A model generated the notes under the pieces. That model searched no databases, was not told the DNA's origin, and saw nothing but the letters and a program-made list of their open reading frames with translations. Shown one piece after another: positions 17,103 through 22,104 of a stretch of DNA of 64,000 nt. The position numbers and the translations under genes are program-made. Position 1 is the first letter of the stretch. Every line of letters begins with the position of its first letter. This DNA is from Halorubrum halophilum (lineage in GTDB: Archaea > Halobacteriota > Halobacteria > Halobacteriales > Haloferacaceae): positions 1-64,000 of the forward strand of contig NZ_BBJP01000014.1 of assembly GCF_000739595.1 (NCBI RefSeq), read 5' to 3'.

Positions 17103-17176
17103 CCGCCCTTAGCTCAGCCTGGTAGAGCAGTCGACTGTAGATCGACTTGTCCCCCGTTCAATTCGGGGAGGGCGGA
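17103..17176 (+). tRNA. tRNA-Tyr (anticodon GTA)
   Basis: 74-nt cloverleaf: acceptor CCGCCCT (17103-17109) pairs with AGGGCGG (17169-17175), discriminator A at 17176. D arm contains AGCTCAGCCTGGTAGAGC. Anticodon stem GTCGA/TCGAC with loop CTGTAGA places GTA at 17137-17139. T arm is CCCCCGTTCAATTCGGGG. The C1-G72 pair is the archaeal tRNA-Tyr identity pair. CCA is not encoded. No intron is seen. Confidence 0.97.
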
Positions 17177-17185
17177 CTTCCTTTC

Positions 17186-17317
17186 CAGTCGATTCGTAGG
17201 CGACTGTAGATCGACTTGTCCCCCGTCCTCGTGAGCGGAGCGAACGAGGGCTCGGAAGACGCAGCGCCGAGCGAAGCGAGGCGACCGTCTTCCGGCGTTC
17301 AATTCGGGGAGGGCGGA
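17186..17317 (+). repeat. Broken duplicate of the tRNA-Tyr 3' half, interrupted by a 70-nt hairpin-rich insertion
   Basis: Bases 17201-17225 repeat the anticodon arm and variable region of the adjacent tRNA-Tyr exactly. 17298-17316 repeat its T loop and 3' acceptor strand. Between them are about 72 bases that interrupt the T stem and form two hairpins: CCTCGT...ACGAGG and CGGAAGAC...GTCTTCCG. The 5' edge (CAGTCGA, then about 10 extra bases) also looks like tRNA sequence. It has no D arm, so it is not a functional tRNA. Such 3'-half copies are usually left by integration at a tRNA attachment site. Confidence 0.8.
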
Positions 17318-17564
17318 CTGGTTCTTTGTGCTCGTGAGCGACAGCGAGCGGATGTTGATCGTGAGGGACAACCGACCCGAATTGGGCACGGAAGACGAGT
17401 CATAGCCCGGACCGGCGAGGAAGCTCCTTTGGATGCTCGCTCACGACTTCGTCGACGCGCTCCCGGCCCACAATCGCCCTGTGCATCGCCTCCGCTGTCG
17501 TCAGGAGTTCGCTCACGGCGTCGGCCGAACTTTCATCCCGGTTCGCGTGGTAGTGGGTCTCGTG
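17318..17564. other. Intergenic between the tRNA remnant and DUF555 gene
   Basis: About 245 bases. I see no integrase or credible ORF; open frames here are shadows. A TATA-like ACTTTCATC at about 17530-17538 belongs to the next gene. Confidence 0.5.
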
Positions 17565-17996
17565 ATGGACTGCCGAGTCGTCGTCGAGGCCGCCGTTCCC
17601 GTGTACGACGTGGAAACTGCCGACGAAGCGGTCCGGATCGCTATCTCGAAGACCGGTGAGATGCTGAACCCGGACCTCAACTACGTCGAGATCGAGACCG
17701 GAAGCCGCACGTCGCCCGGCGGCGAGGAGCTTCCGCCGGCGTTCGTCGCCGCCGACGAGGCTCTCGTCGCGCTCGAACTCCGGATGGACGTGTTCAACGT
17801 CGACCGCGAGGAGCACGCGAGCCGCGTCGCCCGTAAGGAGATCGGACAGCGTCTCCGGAACATCCCGCTGACGGTGCTCCGCGTCGATCAGATCGAGGAT
17901 GACACCGACGAGGACACAACCGACGACGACGCGGTCGACGCCGCCGACGACGCGAACGATACTGACGATGCGAACGATACCGACACGCGGAACTGA
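17565..17996 (+). CDS. UPF0212/DUF555 family protein
   Basis: 143 residues. CRVVVEAAVPVYDVETADEA, ISKTGEMLNPDLNYVEIE and FVAADEALVALELRMDVFN are typical of this archaeal family. The position where euryarchaeal relatives often have a CPxCG zinc motif reads RTSPGGEELP, so metal binding by that motif is absent. The C-terminus is a repetitive acidic tail (DDANDTDDANDTDTRN). GTG at 17562 immediately precedes the ATG and is an alternative start. Function unknown. The gene lies just downstream of the tRNA remnant. Confidence 0.85.
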   Translation: MDCRVVVEAAVPVYDVETADEAVRIAISKTGEMLNPDLNYVEIETGSRTSPGGEELPPAFVAADEALVALELRMDVFNVDREEHASRVARKEIGQRLRNIPLTVLRVDQIEDDTDEDTTDDDAVDAADDANDTDDANDTDTRN

Positions 17997-18082
17997 TCCT
18001 TTACGACGGAGTACTCAGAGTCGGCTCTAGACGGCGTCGCCACTCGAAACGTACTGATCGGTCCGCAGGTGGTGACGAAGAT

Positions 18083-18316
18083 TCAGTCTGCGGTCGGGGC
18101 CAGCGGCTCCGACTCGGACTCGTCCATCGGCTCGGTGATTCCCTCGGTCAGCTTAAAAACAGCGGCTTTGTGGTCGGTCTTCGACTTGTGAATCGATGTC
18201 GGTTTGACGCCGAGTTCTTCGTAGGCGTCGAGGTCGATGTTCTCGTCCCAGAACTCGCACTGCTTTCGTACTTCCGCGAGGAGGCCGTGAAGGTGGATAA
18301 GCTCCTGCTTCTTCAT
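18083..18316 (-). CDS. UPF0058 family protein
   Basis: 77 residues, near-canonical UPF0058: MKKQELIHLHGLLAEV, then YEELGVKPTSIHKSKTDHKAAVF. The His/Asp pattern has been suggested to bind metal. The C-terminus is a short acidic tail. A strong TATA box AATATAAAC (minus strand, about 18342-18350) lies about 27 bases upstream, so the message is probably leaderless. Confidence 0.95.
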   Translation of the reverse strand: MKKQELIHLHGLLAEVRKQCEFWDENIDLDAYEELGVKPTSIHKSKTDHKAAVFKLTEGITEPMDESESEPLAPTAD

Positions 18317-18341
18317 GAGTACCAGTCCTTTGCTACCGGAG

Positions 18342-18352
18342 GTTTATATTAT
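18342..18352 (-). promoter_or_regulatory. TATA box for UPF0058 gene
   Basis: Minus-strand ATAATATAAACC, 26-36 bases before the ATG at 18316. Confidence 0.55.
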
Positions 18353-18587
18353 TATCCTGAGTCACGTTACCATGGGTAGCTCCGATTGTCCCGTTTGCGG
18401 GGCGGAGACGTGTTTTTTCGCGTTATCGATCGGGAAGGTTCGCGAGCTTCCCGCTGGCGACCGACCGCCGGGCGCCGAGGAATTTCGACCGCCAGTGCGC
18501 CCGGGATCGGGTACGCCATCGCGCACCATCGCGCCCCGTCGCGCGCGCTCGGTCGAAGGAAACAGCGAATCCGGAGCGACTTCCGAC
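18353..18587. other. Intergenic; possible remnant of a small CPxCG protein
   Basis: A plus-strand frame from ATG 18372 begins MGSSDCPVCGAETCFF but soon becomes Arg/Pro-rich and runs antisense through the next gene, so I do not call it as intact. It may be the decayed start of a small zinc-finger protein. Nothing else is recognised. Confidence 0.35.
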
Positions 18588-18767
18588 CTACTGGAACTGT
18601 TTGACCGCTTCGAGGTCGCGTTCGGTCCGCATGAACTCCGTCAGTCGGCGCGTCGCGTGACAGTCGGGACAGCTGAAGTTCGATCGGAGGCGCTGCAAGT
18701 CAGCGGGATTGTCCTGCCACTCTTTGTTGCACTCCGGACAGACGAGTCTGACGAACGCATCCACCAT
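18588..18767 (-). CDS. Small zinc-ribbon protein
   Basis: 59 residues, MVDAFVRLVCPECNKEWQ, with CPEC at residues 10-13 and CPDC at about 33-36, then HATRRLTEFMRTERDLE. Two CPxC knuckles make a compact zinc ribbon. Small two-CPxC proteins of this type are widespread in haloarchaea. A TATA-like GTTTTTAACC lies about 27 bases upstream of the ATG at 18767, which favours this over the ATG at 18782. The stop lies 230 bp from the IS element's left end; the IS inserted upstream of this gene's promoter. Confidence 0.85.
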   Translation of the reverse strand: MVDAFVRLVCPECNKEWQDNPADLQRLRSNFSCPDCHATRRLTEFMRTERDLEAVKQFQ

Positions 18768-18820
18768 GCGAGTGACGTACACGCGGCCGGGTTAAAAACG
18801 TACGTGGCGGTTCGGAGGCG

Positions 18821-19510
18821 GTGTTCAGATAAGGATTGAAAAGTGAGGCGGTACGTTTTCAAAGTGACTTATGCCCGAAAACGACCGCCTCAGCGGCTGT
18901 TTAGACGAGATCAACTTAGAGTTTGTGGAGCGAGAAGCAACACCGCGGCTGTTGATGAAGCTCAGTATTCAGCTTCATTTAGCTGAATTATCGCTTTCAA
19001 ATACTGTCTCGTTTCTTGATGTTTTTGGTGTTGATAGGGTTCGATCTACCGTTCATAACTGGGTTCATAAGGCCGATCTACAGCCGGAATCTGGTCGGTG
19101 CCCGAATCACGTTGCGGTCGATGAAACGGTGATTCAGCTTGACGATGAACAATATTGGCTGTACGCCGCGGTCGATCCCGATTCAAACGATTTACTCCAT
19201 ACAAAGCTTGAACCGGCAAGAACGAACGTGATCGCAGATCAGTTTTTCGCGGAGCTCCGCGAAAAACACGATGTAGATGACGCGATCTTTCTCGTTGATG
19301 GCGCGGTTCCACTTCACCGAGCCTGTGACAAACATGGCCTCGATTTCAGATACGAACGACATGGAAATCGGAACAGCGTAGAACGTGTCTTTCGTGAGGT
19401 AAAACGCAGAACTACCAGTTTCTCAAACTGTTTCAGCAACGCCGAGGCAGAAACTGCTAACGAGTGGTTGAGATCGTTCGCTTTCGCATGGAATCAGCTT
19501 ATCTGAACAC
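18821..19510 (+). mobile_element. IS6-family insertion sequence (690 bp)
   Basis: Perfect 13-bp terminal inverted repeats: GTGTTCAGATAAG at 18821-18833 and its reverse complement at 19498-19510, enclosing one transposase gene. The interior is visibly richer in A/T than the surroundings. The flanks (GGAGGCG and TACCGGTT) show no matching 8-bp target duplication, so the copy may have undergone flank rearrangement or cointegrate resolution. Ends and size match haloarchaeal IS6 elements. Confidence 0.93.
18871..19506 (+). CDS. IS6-family transposase
   Basis: 211 residues, DDE transposase of short IS6 type. An N-terminal HTH region (residues about 40-70, VSFLDVFGVDRVRSTVHNWVHKA) precedes the catalytic core. 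DDE residues: Asp in HVAVDETVIQLDDEQYWLYAAVD, Asp in IFLVDGAVPLHRAC, Glu in RNSVERVFREVKRRT. The frame is uninterrupted and ends inside the right terminal repeat, so the element may be active. Codon use is more A/T-rich than its neighbours, consistent with transfer. Confidence 0.95.
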   Translation: MPENDRLSGCLDEINLEFVEREATPRLLMKLSIQLHLAELSLSNTVSFLDVFGVDRVRSTVHNWVHKADLQPESGRCPNHVAVDETVIQLDDEQYWLYAAVDPDSNDLLHTKLEPARTNVIADQFFAELREKHDVDDAIFLVDGAVPLHRACDKHGLDFRYERHGNRNSVERVFREVKRRTTSFSNCFSNAEAETANEWLRSFAFAWNQLI

Positions 19511-19531
19511 TACCGGTTCGGATCGCGTCGT

Positions 19532-19547
19532 TCCCCCGCGCGGGGGA
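19532..19547. terminator. Perfect GC hairpin downstream of tfb
   Basis: TCCCCCGCGCGGGGGA is a complete palindrome between the IS end and the stop of the minus-strand TFB gene. It could halt transcription from tfb or be incidental; no T tract follows. Confidence 0.35.
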
Positions 19548-19574
19548 GCCGCCGAGAACGTCGAACGGGGTGAT

Positions 19575-20585
19575 TCAGGCGGTCAGCCCCTCGCTCGCGT
19601 CGAGGAGCTCCTTGTACCGGTTGCGGATGGTGACTTCGGAGATGTCGGCGACTTCCGAGACCTGACTCTGGGTCACCTTCTCGTTCGAGAGGAGCGCGGC
19701 GGCGTACACCGCCGAGGCGGCGAGCCCGACCGGCGACTTCCCGCTGGTGATCCCGGCCTCCGTCGCGCCGTCGAGCAGCTCGCGGGCCAGCCGCTGGGTC
19801 TCCTCGGAGAGTTCGAGCCGGGAGACGAACCGGGGGACGTAGCTCCCGGGGTCGGCGGGCTGGATCTCCAGTTTGAGCTCTCGGATCACGTACCGGTACG
19901 TCCGGGTGAGCTCCATCTTGTCGACCCGCGAGACAGCGGTGAACTCGTCGAGGCTTCGGGGATTCCCCGCCTGACGTGCCGCGGCGTACAGCGCTGCGGT
20001 CGCGACGCCCTCGATGGAGCGGCCCGGGAGGAGGTTCTCGCTCAGCGCGCGGCGGTAGATGACGGAGGCGGTCTCGCGGACGTTGTCCGGGAGGCCGAGC
20101 GCCGAGGCCATGCGGTCGATCTCGCCGAGCGCCTGTTTGAGGTTGCGCTCCTTCGAGTCGCGGGTGCGGAACCGCTCGTTCCACGTGCGCAACCGCTGCA
20201 TTCGCTGGCGCTGGCGGCTGGACAGGGACTTGCCGTAGGCGTCCTTGTCCTGCCAGCCGATGTTCGTCGAGAGCCCCTTGTCGTGCATCATGTTCGTCGT
20301 CGGGGCGCCCACGCGTGACTTGCTGTCGCGCTCGCTGGAGTCGAACGCGCGCCACTCCGGCCCGCGGTCGACCGAGTCCTGCTCGACGACGAGCCCGCAG
20401 TCGGAACAGACCGTCTCGCCGTGCTCCGTGTCGGTCACGAGGTTCCCGTCGCACTCGGGGCAGGTCGTGGTCTGCTCGCTCGTCGATTCCGTCTCGTCTG
20501 CGGTCGATTCGGTCGACCCCGTGGTTCGGTCTCGCTCCGTCTCGCCGTCGTAGCCGCGTATGTGTGTCTCAGTCATGGTGTTCAT
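19575..20585 (-). CDS. tfb: Transcription initiation factor IIB (TFB), copy 1
   Basis: 336 residues. N-terminal zinc ribbon (CPECDGNL ... VCSDCGLV, residues about 42-67), the B-finger region [23 protein letters not shown], then two cyclin-like repeats, the second with [27 protein letters not shown] (BRE-binding HTH). TFB bridges TBP-TATA and RNA polymerase. Haloarchaea carry several TFBs that route stress and growth programmes; a second lies at 40551. An extended acidic Ser/Thr N-terminus (1-40) differs from copy 2. ATG 20576 is an alternative start. Confidence 0.96.
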   Translation of the reverse strand: MNTMTETHIRGYDGETERDRTTGSTESTADETESTSEQTTTCPECDGNLVTDTEHGETVCSDCGLVVEQDSVDRGPEWRAFDSSERDSKSRVGAPTTNMMHDKGLSTNIGWQDKDAYGKSLSSRQRQRMQRLRTWNERFRTRDSKERNLKQALGEIDRMASALGLPDNVRETASVIYRRALSENLLPGRSIEGVATAALYAAARQAGNPRSLDEFTAVSRVDKMELTRTYRYVIRELKLEIQPADPGSYVPRFVSRLELSEETQRLARELLDGATEAGITSGKSPVGLAASAVYAAALLSNEKVTQSQVSEVADISEVTIRNRYKELLDASEGLTA

Positions 20586-20663
20586 GGTGTTTTCACCGAT
20601 CGAACTCCCGACAGAAATACTGGCGTCGGGTTCGCCGATTCGTTAACCAATAGTAAGTCTCCA

Positions 20664-20678
20664 AAGTATATAAACCTT
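20664..20678 (-). promoter_or_regulatory. tfb copy 1 promoter (BRE-TATA)
   Basis: Minus-strand CAAAGGTTTATATAC, a purine-rich BRE-like stretch joined to a strong TATA box, about 85 bases before the ATG, implying a 5' leader near 60 nt. The first ten bases match the tfb copy 2 promoter. Confidence 0.55.
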
Positions 20679-20851
20679 TGTACTACCTTCTCATCGATGA
20701 TACTGTAAACAGGCCGTATCTGTCTCTTCTGTCCGGGTACTGCGATCTGCGGCCTCTCCGTCGAGTACCCGTTCTGTCGCAGCCGACATCTCCGAGGTAT
20801 ATAAATAATGGTGTCGAACCGCCGTCGACTCGTCGCCGTCGACTGCGGGTC

Positions 20852-21514
20852 TCAGGAGCGACGACGCGCGACGAGTGCGACCGCGATCAGCGCGATGAAC
20901 GCGACAGCGACGTCGAACCCGGGCGCCTCGTCGCCGCTTCCGTCTTCGTCGCTCCCGCCGCCTCCGTTCATCTCGTCGTCGCCGTCGGACATGTTGTCGT
21001 CGGACATGTCGTCGCCAGCGTTCTCACCATCCTCGCCCTCCATGTTCTCGGTGTCCTCGCCGCTCTCGACGGTCAGATCGGCGGGCGACATCACCGGCCC
21101 GCCCGCGGCCGCGTACGGCCCGTCCTCGTTGCCCTCACTGCTGGGGAAGTCGTACGCCTCGTTGTCGTTCGTGTCGCGGTGCGCCATAGCGAACACCGTG
21201 TCGTCGTTCTGCAGGGGGTCGTCGAGCCGGACGCGGACGTCCTCGTGGACGCCCGCCTCCAGGTACTCGGTGGTGCCGCGGATGGAGTCGAACACGGCGC
21301 CGTCCGCGAGCGAGGAGTCGTGAACCGTCACGAACCCGCCGTCGGGAACGTGGACCTCGTCGACGACGACCGTGTTCCCACCGGACGTGCCGTCGGCGAA
21401 GCTCACGCTCGCCTCGTTGGTACCGCTCTGTGCCGCGACCGCGCCAGCCGCGCCGGCGACCGCCGACACGACTACCGCGACCGTTATCGCCAATGTCAAT
21501 GCGCTGTTGCGCAT
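20852..21514 (-). CDS. Secreted PGF-CTERM surface protein with DUF7282-like domain
   Basis: 220 residues. Signal peptide MRNSALTLAITVAVVVSAVAGAAGAVAAQ. The central domain (about 35-145) reads ASVSFADGTSGGNTVVVDEV, VTVHDSSLADGAVFDSIRG and ARMA-like FAMAHRDTNDNEAYDF; this pattern recurs in haloarchaeal surface proteins grouped as DUF7282. A very acidic Asp/Glu/Met/Asn linker follows, ending in EAPGFDVAVAFIALIAVALVARRRS, a PGF-CTERM sorting signal. The mature protein is likely lipid-anchored. Function unknown. TATA box about 20-28 bases upstream. Confidence 0.88.
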   Translation of the reverse strand: MRNSALTLAITVAVVVSAVAGAAGAVAAQSGTNEASVSFADGTSGGNTVVVDEVHVPDGGFVTVHDSSLADGAVFDSIRGTTEYLEAGVHEDVRVRLDDPLQNDDTVFAMAHRDTNDNEAYDFPSSEGNEDGPYAAAGGPVMSPADLTVESGEDTENMEGEDGENAGDDMSDDNMSDGDDEMNGGGGSDEDGSGDEAPGFDVAVAFIALIAVALVARRRS

Positions 21515-21530
21515 GAGAGAGTCGACCGAG

Positions 21531-21545
21531 GATATATAAAAAGAG
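21531..21545 (-). promoter_or_regulatory. TATA box for the PGF-CTERM protein
   Basis: Minus-strand CTCTTTTTATATATC, about 17-30 bases ahead of the ATG at 21514. Confidence 0.6.
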
Positions 21546-21642
21546 ATTTCCCGAACTCCGGCCGCGTTCTCACCCAAATTCGTTCGAAAAGCCGCCCAAA
21601 ACGAGTATTCAAGCGCTAACACACCGGTTTCAGGAATAGCAG

Positions 21643-22104
21643 TGATCGACTGCGGGAGTGGGTATTGCAGATCGGTAACGGTTATCGATTATTTAAACAA
21701 CGGGAAGCAACGGTGACGATCGCTTATAAACGAACAATGCGGTGGCGCGCCCCGGTGAGCGGCCCGGAGGGCCGCGAACCGACGGTGCGAGGGAGTCGGT
21801 CGTCCGGAGCAACGCGGAGGGCGACCGACGAGGCTGGGGAGGCGTGAGGCGCCGTGCGGTTGCGGGCGGTGGGACTCAAAGGGGCAGTCGCGAGGACGGC
21901 GCAGGCGACGTAAGCACCACAAGGAGCGAGTGAAACGAGCGACTGAGGAGCACAGCGAGCGTGCGCCGTCCTCGGCGGCTGGGGCTTTGGAAGTGTTCAC
22001 CGAAGGGTCGTCGATCGCTTATAAACACTCAACGGCAACACCACTCATTCACTTATAAATAACCGATCAGCCGAATAGACACACGCACTCCCGCTCTCGT
22101 TCAC
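21643..22104 (-). repeat. Structured repeat element, copy 2 (full length, reverse orientation)
   Basis: About 460 bp. The plus-strand left end GATCGACTGCGGGAGTGGGT (21644-21663) and the right end around 22085-22095 (GCACTCCCGCT) form the inverted termini; the right one is degraded. On the minus strand: TTTATAAG boxes start at 22059 and 22025 (34 apart), conserved AACACTTCCAAAGCCCCAGCC, a 13-bp perfect stem (21891-21903 with 21962-21974), conserved CTGCCCCTTTGAGTCCC, hairpins B and C, then TTTATAAG from 21730 and GTTTAAAT from 21698 (32 apart). The stem sequence differs from copy 1 but remains paired. It sits upstream of the PGF-CTERM gene on the same strand. Confidence 0.85.

Follow-up and report, generated by a model that had tools for sequence, protein, structure and literature searches.

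What process would leave, directly behind a tRNA gene, a broken second copy of its own 3′ half with a palindromic insert inside it? The question is raised by the tRNA-Tyr locus of Halorubrum halophilum (genome G000), which lies in the window, the whole 64,000-nucleotide stretch of contig NZ_BBJP01000014.1 that was analysed. The initial annotation had offered two answers, the scar of a lost integrated element or a tandem duplication later hit by a small palindromic insertion.

The tRNA-Tyr locus

The locus is composed of the following parts.

17103-17177 (+): tRNA-Tyr(GTA) gene, source of the copied 3′ end, called by ARAGORN and by Rfam (RF00005, 60.3 bits)
17178-17200 (+): spacer of 23 nt between tRNA and copy, in other Halorubrum of similar length and partly alike
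17201-17226 (+): 26 nt identical to 17132-17157, the anticodon arm and 5′ T-stem strand of tRNA-Tyr
17227-17249 (+): cassette hairpin 1, from the fold; related sequences occur elsewhere
17250-17297 (+): cassette hairpin 2, from the fold, with a core of the GGAAG..CTTCC type
17296-17319 (+): end of the unit, 24 nt identical to 17155-17178, which hold the T-loop, 3′ T-stem and 3′ acceptor strand of tRNA-Tyr
about 17320-17412 (+): decayed second unit of the usual kind, without the closing 3′-end copy, from by-eye comparison with loci L032 and L036
17433-22000 (no strand given): accessory-looking stretch 3′ of the Tyr units

The description of a tRNA-Tyr followed by a broken copy of its own 3′ half is confirmed, with 26 nt and 24 nt of exact identity; of the interval assigned to it, the start at 17186 has to be moved, as it lies in the spacer and the exact copy starts at 17201. 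The 26-nt repeat begins 69 nt from its source, an event with a probability of about 1e-12 by a simple estimate, and the two exact identities rule out a chance repeat. The segment 17201-17226 is the 5′ arm of an atypical Tyr unit. Regarding the insert, put earlier at about 72 bases, it measures 71 nt (17227-17297), has CGT at both edges and does fold into two hairpins, with −39.5 kcal/mol and a z of −3.5, a fold that none of 200 shuffles equalled; copy and insert taken together fold less exceptionally (z −1.5, equalled by 14 of 200 shuffles). Within the decayed second unit, an inverted T-arm remnant, CGACCCGAATTG, was recognised by eye at 17373-17384.

Between the tRNA-Tyr and its copied parts there are the spacer and the hairpins only, and no integrase occurs in the Pfam matches of the 20 flanking ORFs scanned, in agreement with what had been stated for the neighbourhood. 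Two ORFs of at least 80 aa outside the scanned set touch the interval, 17114-17389 (−) and 17216-17659 (+), and also cover the tRNA or extend past the copy. As for Rfam, the only matches at gathering score in the window and in four unit-bearing loci are the tRNAs themselves, so that membership of the feature, or of the units, in a known Rfam family was rejected. The accessory-looking stretch 17433-22000 carries a DUF555 gene, a piece of an IS240-type DDE transposase, a TFB gene and a DUF7282 gene, and its G+C content is low, down to 0.53.

Comparison within Halorubrum

The comparison covered 52 Halorubrum genomes, and the region downstream of tRNA-Tyr was read in 28 of them. A further copy of the tRNA-Tyr 3′ end (up to 4 mismatches, within 620 nt) was found in 14 of the 28, and a copy of the anticodon arm (up to 6 mismatches) in 10. 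Besides the genome of H. halophilum, the Tyr arrangement is present near full length in G036 (99%), G050 (95%), G026 (92%), G037 (91%) and G015 (88%); two exactly repeated units stand behind tRNA-Tyr in G037 and G038. A second type of unit also occurs behind tRNA-Tyr in the genus, in which a core hairpin stands between an inverted T-arm and a directly copied 3′ end. Both types are found together behind tRNA-Phe of G045 (L033), with arms that are Phe-specific.

Among the 378 pairs formed by the 28 genomes, the upstream flank of tRNA-Tyr is common to 351 and the downstream flank to 6, so that the end of tRNA-Tyr is the edge of a variable region, as had been suspected from the window. A look for islands at this tRNA in relatives had been proposed: in G028 the broken Tyr copy lies 21 kb behind the tRNA (G028:C4:70579-91704), with a junction (L024) that carries TTCGGGGAGGGCGGA, a layout such as an integrated element would leave. 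Similar distances from tRNA-Tyr to copy were seen in G018:C41, G025:C1 and G044:C134, perhaps elements of about 20-21 kb; the junction was read in G028. The integration-like character of the locus thus finds a counterpart in G028, but a single scar of one lost element does not agree with an arrangement that recurs near full length in five other genomes of the genus, has an equivalent at tRNA-Phe and belongs with units found throughout the class.

The usual unit and its occurrence in the genome of H. halophilum

The usual unit consists, in this order, of hairpin 1, an inverted tRNA 3′ end, a conserved core hairpin and a direct tRNA 3′ end, and units are often stacked in tandem. The core contains TTCGGTTC, and its hairpin keeps fixed mismatches. 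In the Tyr unit of the window, by contrast, a copy of the anticodon arm and T stem takes the place of the inverted 3′ end as 5′ arm, and the cassette sits between T stem and T loop.

In H. halophilum, the loci around all 52 Rfam tRNA matches were surveyed, and 51 distinct tRNA sequences passed the filters. The tRNA's own 3′ 20-mer (up to 3 mismatches) recurs within 500 nt downstream for 14 of the 51, exactly in 12, against 30 of 2546 combinations with the downstream region of another tRNA and 1 of 51 on the tRNA's own upstream side; the tRNAs without a copy are increased by eight Rfam matches clustered on contig C79, and tRNA-Gly(GCC), two genes of one sequence, entered once through its locus without a full unit. 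The C79 cluster (G000:C79:12030-14071; L053, L059, L073) packs these eight matches into 2 kb of a 27.8-kb contig, with ARAGORN calls that include Gln, Asp, Pro, Ser, Glu, Met and Arg; it is probably virus- or plasmid-borne.

The tRNA-Gly(GCC) gene, present in two identical copies, allows a plus/minus comparison inside one genome: in L055 a full unit fills exactly the space from the tRNA end to a short unit, and in L054 a like short unit follows the tRNA directly. This shorter kind, recognised by eye, has only some 14 nt of the acceptor end, as a direct and as an inverted repeat, and was found behind tRNA-Gly(CCC), tRNA-Gly(GCC) and tRNA-Arg(CCT) (L042, L054, L057).

Usual units were modelled with the covariance model R1, which has 82 positions, was built from 40 units, was applied at E ≤ 0.001 and was not designed for the shorter kind; the Tyr unit of the window matches it weakly (23.1 bits, E 0.06). 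H. halophilum has 21 R1 matches at E ≤ 0.001, of which 16 lie behind a tRNA, two behind a tRNA remnant and three in a dispersed repeat, a count of adjacency that is biased towards R1 because R1 derives from tRNA-adjacent units (the pair counts of A3, which was fitted to R1, are biased likewise).

The search for relatives of the insert in its own genome, suggested at the outset, gave four dispersed loci that match 17237-17297 (61 nt) with 90% identity, together with weaker matches; the insert is therefore a palindromic cassette with dispersed relatives, in keeping with the small palindromic insertion first proposed. A dispersed repeat, GAGGCTGGGGAGG..GGGACTCAAAGGGGCAGCC, was examined in 16 copies (L002-L005, L007, L008, L054, L056, L081, L163-L169). 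Twelve contain a cassette related to the window insert, and four lack it at that place (L054, L056, L081, L163), although in L163 a related cassette is present further along.

Distribution across Halobacteria

A 24-mer spanning inverted T-loop and core was searched in 84,980 species genomes and gave 46 matches in 45 stretches, all haloarchaeal, from Halorubrum, Halobellus, Halopenitus, Natrinema, Halosimplex, Natronolimnohabitans, Halomicrobium, Natronorubrum and MAGs. A tRNA lies upstream of 43 of the 46, and a closing copy of the 3′ end follows in 37; of the three matches without an upstream tRNA, two are at the edge of the locus and one (L095) stands behind the 3′ half of a tRNA-Gly.

With R1, and up to 15 candidates scored per genome, matches were obtained in 289 of 292 genomes of Halobacteria and in 76 of 77 genera. 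In a sample of the phylum, 32 of 196 genomes matched, and all 32 belong to Halobacteria (labelled as same order or closer). Three genomes, G060, G166 and G296, each at least 98% complete, gave no R1 match even with laxer filters. Among the 36 best-scoring loci of the class and phylum scans, 32 have a tRNA within 900 nt upstream.

A set of loci was then assembled from the 150 best of 251 matches and 41 more, 189 unique in all, from which nine palindrome echoes on the opposite strand were removed to leave 180 units; as the fetched loci are the best-scoring matches, the sample favours well-kept units. A tRNA lies within 1000 nt upstream of 169 of the 180, with 26 anticodon types represented; the other 11 are closed by a tRNA-like 3′ end, and an intact upstream tRNA was not found in the locus. 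Over 18 nt, the closing copy equals the upstream tRNA exactly in 109 of the 169 and with up to 2 mismatches in 153, still with 26 types. The initial annotation held that the same arrangement in distant haloarchaea would point to a functional structure rather than a scar, and related units do stand behind these 26 anticodon types across Halobacteria.

Since R1 was built from tRNA-adjacent units, the complete and distant chromosome of G057 is a fairer test of position. It has 40 R1 matches (43 less three opposite-strand echoes). A same-strand tRNA precedes 38 of these by no more than 800 nt (chance 0.8%), and no match lies on the 5′ side of a tRNA; the remaining two are, by eye, behind remnants of tRNA 3′ ends. 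Half of the tRNAs of G057 (21 of 42) have a unit, and six consecutive units were read by eye behind one tRNA-Ser (L268).

Structure and covariation

The unit folds into two stems split by an internal loop, with fixed mismatches, an architecture that might be compared with the integron attC site, whose two box pairs flank an unpaired spacer and which IntI recognises as a single strand. In the alignment of 40 units (A2), 93.5% of cells pair and 11 of the 17 pairs change on both sides; the covariation is 0.335 versus 0.142 after shuffling, and none of 500 shuffles reached it. For 145 distinct matches, which were aligned by the model and so lean towards it, the pairing is 94.4% and the covariation 0.287 versus 0.121. 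Single units were folded in six cases, with z from −1.0 to −5.4; most fold well, but not all.

The L-stem was followed in the 120 units that have the commonest core. Its 18 distinct forms comprise 76 Watson-Crick pairs, one G·T, two A·C and 11 other pairs; the stem changes by whole Watson-Crick pairs with few G·U, so that there is no sign of an RNA wobble preference, and RNA wobble as the driver of stem changes was rejected on these counts, limited to 18 distinct stems. Finally, the unpaired positions of the core are constant across genera, which argues that something recognises the core.

Movement between tRNAs and correction of the arm

Some units share parts in spite of different addresses. 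Hairpin 1 of an Asp unit (L143) is identical over 45 of 45 nt to that of a Ser unit (L134) in a different genome, and a Val unit (L056) and a Gly unit (L107) have hairpin 1 and core in common, with tRNA-derived ends that are local. For 54 of 150 units, hairpin 1 had a neighbour in another locus; the tRNA was the same in 41 of these cases and another one in 13; movement between tRNAs is therefore the rarer event and not the commonest history.

As for the inverted arm, 164 of 213 units agree in it with the T-loop type of their own tRNA, against 88.6 expected under independence; by type, the agreement is 116 of 146 for CAAATC, 25 of 30 for CGAATC and 12 of 15 for CAATTC. A cruder permutation test goes in the same direction (7.10 versus 6.50 matches, sd 0.06). 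In the 49 units whose arm differs from the local T-loop, 19 arms are of another common type and 30 are otherwise changed. These comparisons suggest that movement between tRNAs does happen, and show an inverted arm that follows the local tRNA. Template switching has been proposed, in the passages concerned of PMC8794818, to keep hairpin arms paired and to give multi-base compensatory changes; the whole-pair changes of the L-stem, with few G·U, are what arm homogenisation by such switching would predict.

Integrated stretches, vehicles and enzymes

Two stretches of the H. halophilum genome show how units stand towards larger insertions. About 5 kb separate tRNA-Ala(CGC) from its 3′ remnant, after which comes a complete unit (L161, G000:C77:90800-96600), and about 15 kb separate tRNA-Leu(TAG) from its 3′ remnant, followed by a complete unit and a decayed second one (L162, G000:C98:115700-131300). 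Both stretches look like integrated elements, and the order of remnant and complete unit indicates that large elements seem to use the tRNA and to displace a pre-existing unit, which would not seem to be their scar.

Carriage by viruses, phages or plasmids found no backing, since the exact 24-mer had no match in viral contigs and one 126-nt unit had none in plasmids and phages, queries with which distant relatives could be missed. Regarding candidate enzymes, 16 genomes were searched. Cas1 is absent from H. halophilum and from G048, G064, G052, G053, G076, G068 and G294, all unit-rich, and present in the unit-rich G057 and G075 as well as in the unit-free G060 and G166; a need for Cas1 was rejected on the eight unit-rich genomes that lack it. 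The IS200/IS605 Y1 transposase TnpA (PF01797) occurs in 14 of the 16, unit-free G060 and G166 included, and the sole unit-rich genome with no PF01797 match is G068 (21 R1 matches). Judged from this one genome, a requirement for TnpA is unlikely, and an earlier enzyme, since lost, is possible.

Relation to known elements

Partial tRNAs directly beside full tRNA genes were remarked upon in Haloferax gibbonsii LR2-5 (PMC7921747); the hairpin unit, the inverted arm, the shared core and the class-wide family are absent from the passages in question. This remark is the nearest to a description of hairpin units at tRNA ends, which was not found in the open-licence PMC literature, and the units are apparently undescribed as a family. 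Palindromic repeats, tRNA ends as insertion sites and template switching are each already known.

Several known systems share traits with the units. The SMR-A elements of Haloquadratum walsbyi are similarly small (about 110 bp) and transposase-free, with inverted ends and a mobilisation termed enigmatic, and sit inside palindromes of other elements (PMC3119063). Their targets, according to the same passages, are IS605-type and PATE palindromes, with no target duplication, whereas the units are found at tRNA 3′ ends, are accompanied by a duplicate of the tail of the local tRNA and adopt its sequence; identity with SMR-A was rejected on these sites and on the unit end, which repeats the upstream tRNA end (109 of 169 exact over 18 nt). 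The REP elements of the GTAG/CGTC families are likewise short repeated palindromes of intergenic DNA, but are characterised, in the part of PMC3733652 that bears on them, as stem-loops of 20-40 bp with an unpaired tag at one end, in contrast to units with tRNA-copied arms at tRNA 3′ ends. The CGTC of the unit is inside the core and partly paired; without an unpaired end tag, and with matches at tRNA 3′ ends or remnants (G057) rather than dispersed, the units were not assigned to REPs.

In Aciduliprofundum boonei, the casposon recognises TCAAATC, which is the T-loop motif in our own reading, upstream of its insertion point at the tRNA-Pro 3′ end and duplicates 14-15 bp, as reported in the relevant section of PMC6614799. 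It needs a Cas1-family casposase, in contrast to the units, which abound in H. halophilum and seven other genomes devoid of Cas1. The attachment sites of archaeal tyrosine integrases share with the units the direct repeat of a tRNA 3′ end, but the duplication is single and bounds a gene-bearing element, and an inverted arm or a core hairpin is absent from the passages of PMC8371274 on these sites. In the window the copies are separated by spacer and hairpins, with no integrase in the 20 flanking ORFs scanned, and the distribution of related units is class-wide, not sporadic; membership among integrase scars was rejected accordingly.

Explanations weighed

With confidence a little below even, the feature of the window is interpreted as an atypical member of class-wide palindromic non-coding units that spread among tRNA 3′ ends as DNA-level repeats. 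Anatomy, position, tandem growth, sharing between tRNAs and local arms are shown by the units themselves, and the course of events is inferred. A unit would insert at the end of a tRNA gene, where about 14 to 22 nt of the tRNA tail would then be present twice in direct orientation, so that the tRNA stays intact; this repeat, which we infer may be a target duplication, could come from a staggered cut or from a template switch within the conserved T-loop. The inverted arm would then be rewritten to the local sequence through hairpin template switching, and recombination between repeated ends would lengthen or shorten the arrays. Such spreading has to contend with several facts: no enzyme was found, no vehicle was seen with the unit and the 24-mer used as queries, 49 of 213 inverted arms are unlike the local T-loop, and three of the 21 matches in H. 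halophilum are in a dispersed repeat and not at a tRNA. Units at different tRNAs with related hairpins 1 are the minority, and the Tyr unit of the window matches R1 weakly. Moreover, the fixed mismatches and the core common to different genera give an impression of selection, not required of a repeat that is purely parasitic. A bolder form, possible but rather to be doubted, is that of a class-specific repeat for which the tRNA 3′ end is both address and template, with a unit that lands, duplicates the tail, rewrites its arm and may pass on to a further tRNA, where the arm is adapted anew, and so forms CRISPR-like arrays of tRNA ends.

The same units could come about with no dedicated mobility, if polymerase template switching and gene conversion, strong in polyploid haloarchaea, copied hairpin 1 and core between tRNA tails by switches at the T-loop GGTTCRAATCC. 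This would suit the copied segments of the usual unit, which by eye start at the T-loop, the stretch most alike among tRNAs, as well as the exact tandem duplications of L013 and L015, the dispensability of Cas1 in eight unit-rich genomes and of TnpA in one, and the lack of plasmid, phage or viral copies with the queries used. We consider it unlikely, as the first switch, from tRNA end to hairpin 1, has no evident homology to work on, template switching would tend to erase the constant unpaired positions of the core, and the restriction to one class in the phylum sample is left unexplained. Distinctly unlikely, in turn, is a selected structural RNA, in which the units would be trailers of pre-tRNAs, with hairpins that serve termination, regulation or processing of the 3′ end; the inverted arm would be an antisense of the 3′ end of the mature tRNA and be masked by the direct copy. 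Near-universality in the class (289 of 292), covarying stems, conserved unpaired core positions and, in G057, the placement of units 3′ of the tRNA and in sense orientation, with none on the 5′ flank, all speak for such a role. The best-defined units show no wobble preference (76 Watson-Crick, one G·T, two A·C, 11 other), however, half of the tRNAs of G057 (21 of 42) have no unit, the tRNA-Tyr locus varies widely inside one genus, and three genomes at least 98% complete have no match.

In the reading as integration scars, each copy would mark where an integrative element, since lost, had its distal attachment site. The use of tRNA 3′ ends by archaeal integrases, as treated in part of PMC8371274, the length of the Tyr copy, which spans anticodon to 3′ end as an attachment site would, and the hypervariability of the tRNA-Tyr locus fit this reading, which is nevertheless very improbable: it does not account for an inverted arm, a core common to different tRNAs, six units in a row at L268 or units in 289 of 292 genomes, and the 5-kb and 15-kb stretches at tRNA-Ala and tRNA-Leu end in their own remnant before a complete unit begins. 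A plain att scar was therefore rejected for the whole family on distribution, inverted arm and shared core, and for the units this reading is already largely refuted.

Significance

In conclusion, a feature that is nearly ubiquitous in the sampled genomes of a class, and stands beside half of the tRNA genes in one genome (G057), seems undescribed as a family. The units can confuse the calling of att sites and tRNA pseudogenes; they also provide natural sequences for the study of hairpin template switching, and the unit-free G060, G166 and G296 lend themselves to the search for a gene that the units require. Mobile units would be a case of a non-coding repeat that adapts to many tRNA genes and leaves them intact, and would imply an activity peculiar to Halobacteria; units that work as RNA would add a further level to tRNA biology. 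In both cases, the partial tRNAs found beside full copies could be explained by them.
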